64,000 bases of DNA from Gammaproteobacteria bacterium (lineage in GTDB: Bacteria > Pseudomonadota > Gammaproteobacteria > Pseudomonadales > JAUIET01): contig JAUIET010000004.1 of the NCBI GenBank assembly GCA_030429735.1, positions 124,001-188,000 of the forward strand, written 5' to 3'. The notes beneath the pieces were generated by a model, which had not been told where the DNA came from, did not search any database, and saw only the letters and a program-made list of their open reading frames with translations. This document shows, in pieces, positions 2,444 to 59,122 of the stretch (position 1 is its first letter; each line of letters starts with the position of its first letter). The translations under genes and the position numbers were made by a program.

Positions 2444-2873
2444 ACAAAGACTGCAGATCATCGTGTTTGTACTTATTGCAGTGGCCATTGCTGCTGGTCT
2501 GCTGTTGTATGCCCTGCGTGAAAACATCAATCTTTTTTATCCGCCGGCCGATATAGCCGCCGGTAAGGTAGCTGTTGGTCAGCAGATTCGAGCGGGTGGG
2601 ATGGTGCGTGAGGGCAGCGTCGAACGCAGCGAGCAAAACCTGCAAGTTCGTTTCGTTGTGACTGATTACGCAGCCGACCTTGTGGTGAACTACGACGGAA
2701 TTTTACCCGACATGTTTGCTGAAAATGCAGGTGTTGTCGTGGCCGGTAAGCTTACTGAGAATGGCGAGTTTGAGGCCAGTGAGGTGCTTGCCAAACACGA
2801 TGAAAATTACATGCCGCCGGAGGTTGCTGAAGCACTTGAGCAGAGCGGTGGCAGTAGTGAGGCTGAGTACTAA
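2427..2873 (+). CDS. ccmE: CcmE, periplasmic haem chaperone
   Basis: Binds haem covalently and passes it to the CcmFH lyase. The 148-residue protein has an N-terminal membrane anchor at about residues 9-29 and a periplasmic OB-fold domain. The haem-binding motif LAKHDENYMP places the attachment histidine at His124 and the axial tyrosine at Tyr128. Length and anchor are typical. Its TAA overlaps the ccmF ATG by one base. Confidence 0.96.
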   Translation: MHPQRKQRLQIIVFVLIAVAIAAGLLLYALRENINLFYPPADIAAGKVAVGQQIRAGGMVREGSVERSEQNLQVRFVVTDYAADLVVNYDGILPDMFAENAGVVVAGKLTENGEFEASEVLAKHDENYMPPEVAEALEQSGGSSEAEY

Positions 2874-4870
2874 TGATTCCAGAGTATTCCCATTTCAGCC
2901 TGGTGTTGGCCCTATGTCTGTCAGTATTGCTGGCAGTTTTGCCTCTGTACGGTGCGTTGCGCGGGGATCGCCAGCTGATGCTGACGGCGCGCAGTTTGGC
3001 TACCGGGCAGTTTGTTTTCGCGCTGGTAAGCTTTATTGGTTTAACCTGGTCGTTTGCAGTTGACGATTTCTCAGTGATCACCGTCGCGCAAAATTCCAAC
3101 TCTTTACTGCCAATGCATTTTAAATTGTCGGCGGTGTGGGGGAACCATGAAGGGTCAATATTGCTGTGGATATTGATTCACGCCAGCTGGACTCTGGCGG
3201 TTGCCATGTTCAGCAGACAGTTGCCTGTCGATATTCTGGCCAGGGTGCTGTCAATCATGGGAATGATTGGCGTTGGGTTTATCTTGTTTTCCTTGTTGAC
3301 GTCGAATCCGTTTGAGCGTTTGTTTCCCAATGTTCCACAAGACGGAAATGATCTTAATCCCTTGTTACAGGATATTGGTCTAATCATTCATCCGCCGTTG
3401 CTCTACATTGGATATGTGGGCTTTTCGGTCGCGTTTGCATTTGCCATTGCTGCCCTGAGTACTGGACAGCTGGATTCAGCCTGGGCACGTTGGACCAGGC
3501 CGTGGACTAACGTTGCCTGGTCTTTCCTTACCTTGGGCATCGCACTTGGCAGCTGGTGGGCGTACTACGAGTTGGGCTGGGGCGGCTGGTGGTTCTGGGA
3601 CCCGGTAGAAAATGCATCGTTTATGCCCTGGTTGGCGGGCACCGCGTTAATTCATTCCCTGGCTGTGACCGAAAAACGCGGTGTGTTCAAGGGCTGGACA
3701 GTGTTGCTGGCAATCACGACGTTTTCGCTGAGTTTGCTGGGCACTTTCCTGGTTCGCTCAGGTGTGTTGACTTCCGTGCACGCCTTTGCCAGCGACCCTG
3801 AGCGCGGGTTCTTTATTCTGATGTTTCTGTGCGCGGTGATCGGTGGCTCATTAACCCTGTATGCACTTAGAGTGCCTACGGTAAAATCCCAGGTGCGTTT
3901 TTCCTACCTATCGAGAGAGTTTTTGCTGCTACTGAACAATGTTGTGCTGGTGGTGGCGATGCTCACGGTATTGCTGGGCACCTTGTTTCCATTGTTAATG
4001 GACGCACTGGGGCAAGGTCGGTATTCGGTTGGACCGCCGTATTTCAATACGCTGTTTGTACCATTAATGGCCTTGTTATTCGCGCTGATGGGCTTAGGGC
4101 CCAGAGCTCGCTGGAAATCCAGTACCAAACAGCAGCTGTTCAAGCCACTCTTGTCGGCCGCCGTCGCCTGCACTGTGGTGGCGCTGCTCAGCCCTTTTAT
4201 GTTGCCGGGCGAGTATCATCTGGCGGTGGCTTTGGGGATATTGCTGAGCGCATGGATTACCGTAACGGCTTTCATGCACTTGCATACAGCTATCTACAGT
4301 AAAAGCGAATCGCGATTGAAATTGCAGCGTATTCGGGCCAGTCATATCGGCATGCTGCTTGGTCATGTTGGCTTGGCAATAACTGCACTGGGTGTGGTGT
4401 TAACCAGCCACTACAGTAGCGAACAGGATCTCAGGATGCAGCTGGGTGATTCGGTGACGACGGGTGTTAATGGCCAGTACACAATTAGCTACGTGAACGA
4501 TGGTGAGGAGAGGGTTGACAATTACCTGGCCCAGTATGTTCTTTTTGAGCTAAGTAAAGACGGTAAAGTGCTAAATACCCTGCGCCCTGAAAAACGCCGC
4601 TACCTGGCGCAGCAAAATGTCATGACAGAAGCCGCCATCGATGCCGGACTGAGTCGTGACGTGTACGTGGCACTAGGCGAGAAACTGGACGCTGATGCCT
4701 GGGCCGTGCGAGTGCATTACAAAGCCTTTGTGCGCTTGATATGGCTTGGCGCATTATTGATGGGTGCAGGCGGTATTGTCGCTGTTCTGGACAAACGCTA
4801 TCGCCGGGTGCGCTCGGCCAGGTCCGCAATGTCGCCCACGTTTGATGGTACCGCACAAAGTGCCGGTTGA
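2873..4870 (+). CDS. ccmF: CcmF, cytochrome c haem lyase subunit
   Basis: Large inner-membrane component of the haem ligation module; with CcmH it attaches haem to apocytochrome CXXCH motifs. The 665-residue protein is polytopic, with many hydrophobic segments and the WWD segment around residues 225-250 (GWGGWWFWDPVENASFMPW). The length is normal. A hydrophilic, presumably periplasmic domain occupies about residues 520-610, followed by a final membrane helix. It sits between ccmE and ccmG in the operon. Confidence 0.96.
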   Translation: MIPEYSHFSLVLALCLSVLLAVLPLYGALRGDRQLMLTARSLATGQFVFALVSFIGLTWSFAVDDFSVITVAQNSNSLLPMHFKLSAVWGNHEGSILLWILIHASWTLAVAMFSRQLPVDILARVLSIMGMIGVGFILFSLLTSNPFERLFPNVPQDGNDLNPLLQDIGLIIHPPLLYIGYVGFSVAFAFAIAALSTGQLDSAWARWTRPWTNVAWSFLTLGIALGSWWAYYELGWGGWWFWDPVENASFMPWLAGTALIHSLAVTEKRGVFKGWTVLLAITTFSLSLLGTFLVRSGVLTSVHAFASDPERGFFILMFLCAVIGGSLTLYALRVPTVKSQVRFSYLSREFLLLLNNVVLVVAMLTVLLGTLFPLLMDALGQGRYSVGPPYFNTLFVPLMALLFALMGLGPRARWKSSTKQQLFKPLLSAAVACTVVALLSPFMLPGEYHLAVALGILLSAWITVTAFMHLHTAIYSKSESRLKLQRIRASHIGMLLGHVGLAITALGVVLTSHYSSEQDLRMQLGDSVTTGVNGQYTISYVNDGEERVDNYLAQYVLFELSKDGKVLNTLRPEKRRYLAQQNVMTEAAIDAGLSRDVYVALGEKLDADAWAVRVHYKAFVRLIWLGALLMGAGGIVAVLDKRYRRVRSARSAMSPTFDGTAQSAG

Positions 4871-56808: not shown

Positions 56809-57585
56809 ATGAAGGTTATTACATTGAACGCCAACGGCATTCGCTCGGCGGCAAAGAAAGGTGTTTTCGACTGGCTGTCCAGGGAAAAAGCCGACGTTGT
56901 CTGCATTCAGGAAACCAAAGCACAGCGTGATCAGCTCGATGACGAAATATTCCACCCACAAGGCTACCACTGCTTTTATCACGATGCCGAAAAGAAGGGC
57001 TACAGTGGGACTGCCTTGTACAGCAAGCGCGCTCCCGAGCAGGTCACCACGAAGTTGGGTATAGACTTGTCTGACAGGGAGGGCCGCTGGCTACAGGCGG
57101 ACTATCAGGACTGGACGGTGGTGTCGCTGTATATGCCATCGGGTTCCAGCGGTGAGGAAAGGCTCATGCTCAAACTGCAACTGATGGCCGATCTGGAACC
57201 CGTGTTGCAATCGCTGATGAATAGTGGTCGGTACGTGGTCGTTTGTGCTGACTGGAACATTTGCCACAAGGAAATAGACTTGAAAAACTGGAAGGCCAAC
57301 CAGAAGAATTCCGGTTTTTTGCCGGTTGAGCGAGAGTGGCTTGATCGGATGCTCACTGAACAGGGCTGGATAGATTCGTTTCGAGTCGTCAATCAAAGCC
57401 CCGAGCAATACACGTGGTGGTCTAATAGAGGCCAGGCCTGGGCAAAAAACGTGGGTTGGCGGCTGGATTATCAGCTGGTCACACCGAACGTGAAGAAAAA
57501 AATCAAACATGCAGATATTTACAAAGATGAGCGTTTCTCCGATCATGCACCCCACACAATGCACTACACAGGAAAATTAGTATGA
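56809..57585 (+). CDS. xth: Exodeoxyribonuclease III
   Basis: AP endonuclease/3' exonuclease of base excision repair. The 258-residue protein has LNANGIRSA, CIQETKA with the metal-binding Glu, YMPSGSSGEER, ADWNICHKEIDL with Asp/Asn, WRLDYQLV and the final SDHAPH with the catalytic His. The length is standard. Its TGA overlaps the yajC ATG by four bases. Confidence 0.95.
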   Translation: MKVITLNANGIRSAAKKGVFDWLSREKADVVCIQETKAQRDQLDDEIFHPQGYHCFYHDAEKKGYSGTALYSKRAPEQVTTKLGIDLSDREGRWLQADYQDWTVVSLYMPSGSSGEERLMLKLQLMADLEPVLQSLMNSGRYVVVCADWNICHKEIDLKNWKANQKNSGFLPVEREWLDRMLTEQGWIDSFRVVNQSPEQYTWWSNRGQAWAKNVGWRLDYQLVTPNVKKKIKHADIYKDERFSDHAPHTMHYTGKLV

Positions 57586-57926
57586 GCTTTTTCATTCCGG
57601 AAGCGATGGCACAAACTGCCACCCAGGGCCCGCCACCAAATGCCGGCATGATCCAGTTTGTGATGCTGATTGGCATATTTGTACTGTTTTACTTCATTGC
57701 GATCCGACCACAGCGCAAACGCCAGAAAGAACATGAGAGCATGGTCTCTGCGCTGAAAAAGGGTGATGAGGTGGTTATGTCGTCTGGCATGTTGGGAAAA
57801 GTGACCGGGCTTGACGACCCCTATACAACCATCAAAGTTGCTGATAACGTCGAGCTCAAGTTCCAGAAAGCCGCCGTACACGCGGTTCTGCCCAAAGGCA
57901 CTTTAAAATCAATCAGCGTTCAGTAA
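57582..57926 (+). CDS. yajC: YajC, preprotein translocase accessory subunit
   Basis: A 114-residue single-pass membrane protein: a helix at about 22-44 followed by IRPQRKRQKEHESMVSALKKGDEVVMSSGMLGKVTG (cited in part) and a small beta domain. YajC associates with SecDF. In most proteobacteria it lies in tgt-yajC-secD-secF, but here it is translationally coupled to xth and followed by an inverted-repeat element. Confidence 0.92.
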   Translation: MSFFIPEAMAQTATQGPPPNAGMIQFVMLIGIFVLFYFIAIRPQRKRQKEHESMVSALKKGDEVVMSSGMLGKVTGLDDPYTTIKVADNVELKFQKAAVHAVLPKGTLKSISVQ

Positions 57927-57929
57927 GCA

Positions 57930-58113
57930 CTAGCCCGCATTATTCATGAACCCACGGCTACGACCGCCACTAGCCTGTAAAACGCGGTGCATGTTCCTTC
58001 CAGGTGCTCGACGGGCTGTCAAGTACGCCTGTGCGCCTTCCAGTCCGCGCCACACCGTGTTTTACAGACTGGTGACGCTTTCGCTTCGCGCGTTCATGAA
58101 TAATGCGGGCTAG
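57930..58113. mobile_element. 184-bp MITE-like element with 22-bp perfect inverted repeats
   Basis: The arms at 57930-57951 and 58092-58113 are perfect 22-bp inverted repeats that begin CTAGCCCGCATTATTC. A second, imperfect inverted pair lies inside (57980-57996 against 58059-58075 approximately, sharing CTGTAAAAC/GTTTTACAG). No open reading frame is encoded. CTAG at each end may be a target-site duplication. The element separates yajC from the next gene and supplies its only usable ATG. Family not assigned. Confidence 0.75.
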
Positions 58114-59122
58114 CGAGCTGGTATTTCCCCAGCGACTGAGGCTGGCTCAAACTCCCACGCCCTTGATGCCTATGCATCGATTTTGCCTGGCACGGGGATT
58201 GCCGCTGATTTGGCTGAAACGCGACGACTTGACGCATTCGACTGCCAGTGGCAACAAAATTCGCAAACTGGAGTTTTGTCTGGCCGAAGCCATGCAACAA
58301 CAGGCGGATGTGGTGTTGACCTATGGTGGCCTGCAAAGCAACCATTGCCGCGCTACCGCGCTACTGTGCGCGCAGCTCGGTTTGCGCTGCCACCTTGTTT
58401 TGCGAAGCTCTTCGAGACCCGCTGAACCTGCGGACGGCAATTTGTTACTCGACCAACTGGCCGGTGCACGCATTAGCTATGTAGCTGCGAGAGAGCTGGC
58501 CTGTGATGCTGAGCGTATTGAAACCGATATTGTTAATGAGTATCACCAGCAGGGGCTACGCACGTATTGCATTCCGATCGGCGCCAGCGACGCGACAGGG
58601 CTTTGGGGTTATGTTGCCGCAGCGGCTGAACTGGCCACTGATTTTGATATTCACTCGATCAATCCTGCCCATATTGTGACGGCGAGTGGTTCAGGCGGAA
58701 CGCAAAGTGGCCTGATGGCCGGCGCGGTCGCTTTTGGCCTGAGTGCGAAGGTTTGGGGTATTAACGTTTGCGATGATGCTCACTGGTTCCAGCAAAAAAT
58801 ACGCGATGATTTGACTCAGTGGGATCACAAATACAGCACCGGCATCGACGTAAATTCTTTGACGGTTAACATGCTCGACGGGCACGTTGGTGAAGGCTAT
58901 GCGAAAGCCAGTGATGAGGTTCTGGAGACAATCGCGGCGGTTGCACGAAGCGAAGGTATTGTGTTCGACCCGGTATACACCGGAAAGGCGTTTCATGGTT
59001 TGCTAAAGGAAATCAGGGCCGGTCGATTTGATCAGCCAGACGATCTGGTGTTTATGCACACCGGTGGAGTCTTTGGTTTGTTTCCCTTCAAAGATCGTTT
59101 CTCGCAGTTGGTGTCTTGTTAG
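58103..59122 (+). CDS. D-cysteine desulfhydrase / ACC-deaminase family PLP enzyme
   Basis: A 339-residue fold-II PLP enzyme. The PLP lysine is Lys52 in TASGNKIRKLE; the downstream TYGGLQSNHCRAT and TASGSGGTQSGLMAGA phosphate loops are conserved. It releases sulfide from D-cysteine or deaminates ACC; the two cannot be separated here. The ATG at 58103 lies inside the right inverted repeat of the upstream element. The next in-frame ATG (58166) would delete the conserved TPTPL segment, so the element provides the start codon. Confidence 0.83.
   Translation: MRASELVFPQRLRLAQTPTPLMPMHRFCLARGLPLIWLKRDDLTHSTASGNKIRKLEFCLAEAMQQQADVVLTYGGLQSNHCRATALLCAQLGLRCHLVLRSSSRPAEPADGNLLLDQLAGARISYVAARELACDAERIETDIVNEYHQQGLRTYCIPIGASDATGLWGYVAAAAELATDFDIHSINPAHIVTASGSGGTQSGLMAGAVAFGLSAKVWGINVCDDAHWFQQKIRDDLTQWDHKYSTGIDVNSLTVNMLDGHVGEGYAKASDEVLETIAAVARSEGIVFDPVYTGKAFHGLLKEIRAGRFDQPDDLVFMHTGGVFGLFPFKDRFSQLVSC

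Follow-up and report, generated by a model that had tools for sequence, protein, structure and literature searches.

An IS1380-type MITE between yajC and a PLP enzyme gene may have provided the enzyme with a new start codon

The 64-kb stretch of gammaproteobacterial DNA analysed here (the window) carries an inverted-repeat element between yajC and a gene for a PLP enzyme, and the enzyme ORF begins inside the element. The locus raises the question of where the enzyme is now started: a preliminary description of the sequence proposed either that the element donated the start codon (and perhaps a promoter), or that the gene lost its native start and is decaying. The upstream gene, yajC (57582-57926, plus strand), was identified from its ORF with TIGR00739 (94.1 bits, cut-off 44.2) and PF02699, and its TAA stop lies 7 nt before the element. 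The 339-codon downstream ORF (58103-59122, plus strand) encodes a fold-type II PLP enzyme (PALP; PF00291, 151.5 bits, cut-off 35). Its scores with the models for D-cysteate sulfo-lyase CuyA (NF052482: 296.4, cut-off 450) and D-cysteine desulfhydrase (TIGR01275: 280.6, cut-off 289.4) were both below cut-off; the protein is probably a relative of these enzymes. A 40%-identical paralogue is encoded elsewhere in the same genome.

The inverted repeat first reported for 57930-58140 is real: its outer arms (57930-57956 and 58087-58113) are 27 nt long and 93% complementary, their outermost 22 nt (57930-57951 and 58092-58113) are perfectly complementary by inspection, the terminal 18-nt sequence is rare (two exact sites and one with 3 mismatches in the window, 0.04 expected by chance), and the RNA fold is strong (predicted -94.1 kcal/mol, z -8.9). 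An inner arm pair (57965-57989 and 58053-58077, 84%) lets the whole element fold back. The 22-bp arm was upheld as a perfect repeat and failed as an element boundary, since it includes a 4-bp CTAG that is better read as a target duplication. On this reading, the element proper spans 57934-58109 (176 bp, near-palindromic along its full length, as judged from arms, copies and fold). Sequence, arm search and 18-mer count define its left terminal inverted repeat, CCCGCATTATTCATGAAC (57934-57951, plus strand), and its right one (58092-58109, minus strand), which contains an outward-facing ATG. The target-site duplicates are CTAG at 57930-57933 (read from the sequence) and at 58110-58113 (sequence and alignment with the same-genus genome G001). 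No ORF of 80 aa or more, and no transposase, was present inside the 176 bp according to the ORF list, and no Rfam family matched the window. The mismatch-free outer arms suggest a fairly young insertion.

In the source genome (24 contigs, 97% complete), 21 matches to the element were recorded: three near-full-length copies (182-184 of 184 nt at 92-100%: the window copy at 100%, the two others at 92%), the remainder being partial copies or opposite-strand self-matches. CTAG-like flanks were seen again among these copies. The element was absent from the other 94 of the 95 genomes searched, G001 among them. A 19-base end piece joined to CTAG was found in at least 119 stretches of genome_contigs and in one of viral_contigs; the matches listed came foremost from Nitrospira, and also from Gammaproteobacteria, Planctomycetes, Myxococcota, Acidobacteriota, Binatota and others. 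Among the matches listed, 77 end pairs lay within 450 bp of each other, delimiting elements of 122 to 370 bp with peaks at 173-189 and 208-210; CTAG stood on both sides in 41 of these 77, a sample that required it on one side. Only 6 of the 120 pattern-match loci listed gave blastn matches to the window element (threshold 1e-4), mostly confined to the ends; what these loci have in common is therefore chiefly the end. Across these loci (L052-L171), the IS1380-like end with CTAG frames foldback elements of ~120-370 bp, whose interiors for the most part show no relation to that of the window copy.

IS1380 was recognised as the related family through transposase-first searches. At loci encoding IS1380 transposases (PF13701), element ends read CTAG-CCCGGATTATTCACGA (L178) and CTAG-CCCGAATTATTCGCGA (L176), with 2-3 mismatches in 20, and the transposase of L174 scored 229 bits with NF033539 (cut-off 180). 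Allowing up to 4 mismatches, the 16-base end was recognised in 13 of the 60 flanking sequences of 30 order-level PF13701 loci, against 27 of 1200 shuffled controls. Matching 4-mers frame the PF13701 elements of L203 (TTAG/TTAG), L208 (CTAG/CTAG) and L202 (CTAA/CTAA); those of L204 differ (TTAG/CTAG). Like IS1380-family insertion sequences, the window element has CCCG...ATT.TTCAT-type ends and YTAR 4-mers at its flanks; unlike them, it is 176 bp long and without a transposase. Because its ends match those of IS1380-transposase loci, and identical 4-mers flank some of the elements at those loci, the window element is, as far as sequence comparison can place it, an IS1380-type MITE. The features of a MITE were all found: terminal inverted repeats, short length without transposase, dispersed copies and a target-site duplication. 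An autonomous parent was also sought through identical paired ends (81 pattern-match loci listed), and no clear transposase-sized element was recovered: the search returned mostly the 122-370 bp elements, plus pairings 2.3 and 2.6 kb apart that spanned neighbouring short elements. When the ORFs adjoining the ends were clustered, no transposase was among them. In the source genome (G000), no IS1380 transposase exceeded the cut-off; two sub-cut-off PF13701 hits were rejected as IS1380 transposases, both being best explained as IS4-type. The elements of this genome may thus be stranded.

The enzyme frame reads TGA (58097-58099), ATA, then ATG (58103-58105). As first described, this ATG lies in the right arm and in frame with the enzyme; it opens the 339-codon ORF one codon past the TGA. 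Removal of the element and one CTAG left no ATG, GTG or TTG among the 33 codons from the preceding stop to TTT, nor later before the conserved PTPL region, which bears out the second part of the same claim. With the element in place or removed, the ATG at 58103 is the sole such codon of the enzyme frame before PTPL (ORF and codon listing); TTG or ATG occurs later, at codons 21, 22 and 24, and starting there would remove PTPL.

Comparison with G001 indicated where the native start may have been. This genome has the identical xthA-yajC-enzyme order, and its syntenic site is free of the element, although the exact target could not be aligned. It reads ...TAG CACCCGAGACCT GTG CAG TTT CCG..., so that the GTG start stands 12 nt past the yajC stop. 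The protein starts differ (M-QFPPRL in G001, MRASELVFPQRL in the window); the comparison of N-termini thus did not yield an element-free relative with the same start. In the protein alignment (ELVFPQ in the window, -VQFPP in G001), the GTG of G001 pairs with an in-frame CTG at 58118-58120 (plus strand), a candidate remnant of the native start that the preliminary description had missed. This equivalence is a codon-level reading made by eye: a MAFFT DNA alignment of the joined flanks gaps the stretch and leaves the start codons unpaired. In the joined flanks, the CTG is 11 nt from the yajC stop, compared with 12 nt for the GTG of G001. Because the GTG is codon-aligned with a CTG here, the native enzyme start appears to have been lost. 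All 28 orthologues with a same-strand upstream yajC have at least one ATG, GTG or TTG in frame near the N-terminus.

The position of yajC upstream on the same strand is shared by 29 of the 30 best homologue loci (window included); L048 lacks yajC in the stretch examined. In 9 of the 28 relatives with this arrangement, the likely enzyme start lies 0-13 nt past the yajC stop (by-eye reading), and therefore tight packing of the two genes is common. The pairing itself recurs across the order (28 of 29 relatives' loci, L023-L051), with no obvious functional reason.

We give slightly better than even odds (about 0.52) to the reading in which an IS1380-type MITE inserted at the yajC/enzyme junction gave the enzyme its new start, the ATG at 58103, after which the native start was lost. 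We infer the following order of events. The 176-bp element would have entered a CTAG within the few bases separating the two genes. Its right terminal repeat, ending ...A ATG CGG G, joined to the duplicated CTAG, would read ATG CGG GCT AGN; inserted in the enzyme frame, it would provide a new start and add MRAS before the old N-terminal region. The native start (GTG in G001) would then turn redundant and could drift to the present CTG, and a CTG at the old start position fits this expectation. The mRNA reading through from yajC would fold into a long hairpin beginning three bases past the stop, with the ATG near the base of its 3' arm; a ribosome finishing yajC might open the base of the hairpin, or an RNase III-type cut might free the ATG. 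Cutting has a precedent: the transcribed Correia inverted repeat is described as an RNase III substrate in the sections of PMC2649163 and PMC10969869 drawn on here.

Fold models of the read-through RNA placed the ATG, fully paired, in a very stable hairpin. It remained fully paired with the hairpin held open to 57936; with the hairpin held open to 57940, its three bases were unpaired with probabilities of 0.95, 0.90 and 0.43. In modelled transcripts starting inside the element, the ATG was partly open (for example 0.67, 0.66 and 0.54 from 58085). This release on opening to 57940 counts in favour of the element start, as does an independent case at another locus (L143, below). Counting against it, the paired ATG has no Shine-Dalgarno match (0 kcal/mol, compared with -2.5 for the CTG at 58118, from GCGGG, and -3.0 for the GTG of G001; five other genes of the window gave -4.3 to -8.4), the element contains no consensus promoter, and long ORFs are not over-represented behind the terminal ATGs of elements of this kind.

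The same absence of a Shine-Dalgarno match and the pairing of the ATG would suit silencing of the enzyme by the insertion, in which the gene was uncoupled from yajC, its start was enclosed in a hairpin with no ribosome site, and the ORF is intact as the event was recent. Loss of the canonical native start and the young age suggested by the perfect outer arms point the same way, and the paralogue could make loss of the enzyme tolerable. The condition of the gene speaks on the other side. The ORF has no stop or frameshift and its product is 70% identical in amino acids to that of G001. Among the 64 columns that are invariant in the remaining 28 orthologues it has 1 deviation (one or two such deviations occur in 11 of the 29 rows), and its tip branch (0.27, on a tree with unsettled bootstrap) is no longer than that of G001 (0.26); saturation at third positions (36% identity in the enzyme) made dN/dS against G001 unusable. 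Because of the intact ORF, the 1/64 deviation and the G001-like branch, the evidence speaks against long decay; recent silencing would leave no mark and is compatible with an intact ORF. We regard silencing as possible but on the unlikely side. The earlier alternative of a lost start in a decaying gene therefore survives in its first half: the start appears lost, and the ORF is intact and evolves no faster.

Translation might instead begin at the CTG at 58118, the old start position, served by the weak GCGGG from the element end, with the ATG at 58103 being incidental. The codon alignment with the GTG of G001, the Shine-Dalgarno-like energy (-2.5 against 0) and the conserved spacing to the yajC stop in the joined flanks (11 against 12 nt) are all consistent with this. 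However, CTG is a poor start codon in bacteria. This one was mostly paired in the modelled transcripts (one base was half open in two models), and a better in-frame ATG stands 15 nt upstream, so that we consider a CTG start unlikely.

That a promoter comes from the element together with the start, making the enzyme an independent unit, is very improbable: by eye, the right repeat contains an AATAAT similar to a -10 box, and outward promoters are known in MITEs (MITEAba12 and Correia, as reported in parts of PMC6382973 and PMC2649163), but a consensus scan inside the element found no sigma-70-like site and no paired -35/-10, and a transcript begun from AATAAT would start downstream of the ATG. 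The proposal that the element acted as donor thus keeps its start codon, the only canonical one available, and loses its promoter.

The independent case supporting the element start comes from a gammaproteobacterial MAG (Co_bin.113, locus L143). A 174-bp element of the same kind (L143:3020-3193) sits after codon 4 of a gene (2469-3026, minus strand) behind minE, which was identified by TIGR01215/NF001422. The joined flanks read ATG AGT GAG TCT AGC GAC GTA TTG (MSESSDVL). The native ATG can still be recognised; reading from it meets a stop at the distal end of the element, whereas the ATG of the element rebuilds the N-terminus from MSES|SDVL to MRA|SDVL, giving MRASDVL. This ATG has a Shine-Dalgarno-like AGAAGG (-4.0) inside the element, whose hairpin is predicted at -114.5 kcal/mol; an alternative start is the TTG at codon 7. 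The protein matched no Pfam or NCBIfam family and was found in 70 of 274 class-level genomes.

A general role of the ATG end as a gene starter was rejected, as terminal ATGs showed no excess of long ORFs: among the matches listed, 17 of 154 opened at least 100 codons, compared with 31 of 154 in the next frame and none in the third. Among the same matches, 22 ORFs of at least 80 codons begin at such an ATG, and six were checked with Pfam. Of the ORFs checked, only those of the window (L001) and L143 are supported by homology and have no later ATG before conserved sequence, L143 keeping its TTG at codon 7; for the remainder, either a native start lies further down (L066 by Pfam, L084 and L007 by eye) or support is lacking. 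Two of the 22 are, on these comparisons, convincing start replacements. Because landing in frame is a 1-in-3 event, such replacements are expected accidents, possibly kept for preserving the gene. A stronger claim would make IS1380-type MITEs portable start-codon cassettes for tightly packed operons. In both cases the element begins 6-7 nt past the stop of the upstream gene and folds back over its full length; the stop and the new ATG would stand side by side at the hairpin base, and a ribosome ending the upstream gene would reinitiate beyond the folded element, so that coupling within the operon would survive the ~175 inserted bases. We hold this generalisation to be quite doubtful.

The nearest known parallel is MITEAba12 of Acinetobacter, which likewise has a MITE end as gene start: according to the portion of PMC6382973 used here, its outward-reading terminal repeat supplies, by in silico analysis, the initial four residues (MQQS) of neighbouring genes in three genomes. 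MITEAba12 has a length of 113 bp, duplications of 9 bp and only weak folding (about -24 to -27 kcal/mol), whereas the window element is a 176-bp sequence with IS1380-type ends, flanking CTAG and a very strong hairpin, next to a gene whose original start is apparently lost. The BOX elements of pneumococcus encode start codons of expressed ORFs that run into flanking DNA and lack a good Shine-Dalgarno sequence; in the relevant part of PMC3049150 these ORFs matched only hypothetical proteins, whereas the window element is in frame with a conserved enzyme. Correia/NEMIS of Neisseria are similarly short inverted-repeat MITEs before genes, but are described as acting via promoters, IHF and RNA stability, a start codon not being mentioned in the sections of PMC2649163 consulted; they would be set apart from the window element, whose end matches IS1380. 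Rickettsia palindromic elements also add codons to host genes, but insert within ORFs as in-frame peptides (PMC10969869, in part), whereas the window element replaces a start. The excerpts returned by the literature search contained no IS1380-derived MITE giving a start codon. Since MITEAba12 and BOX are precedents, a MITE end as gene start is a known kind of arrangement, of which 58103 would be a candidate example; new, on sequence grounds, are ends of IS1380 type, a strong hairpin where two genes are closely spaced, the apparent loss of the native start and the repair at L143.

If the ATG at 58103 is used, the locus illustrates how insertion of a mobile element into the initial codons of a conserved gene can leave that gene functional, the element then turning indispensable once the old start is lost. 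L143 would be a further example of this outcome, one in which the original start can still be read.

At element ends of this kind, gene prediction may yield false MRAS/MRAR starts. In two own-genome copies (L007:1531-2664, and L002 on the minus strand), the terminal ATG happens to lie in the frame of a likely gene, for which possible native starts remain further down; the L002 copy has in its ATG frame a dnaE2-like sequence with GTG starts downstream. These terminal ATGs are likely sources of over-long gene calls beginning MRAS/MRAG. Finally, a contig filed as viral contains a 236-bp element of the same type (L171:805-1040), with a foldback of -175.6 kcal/mol.
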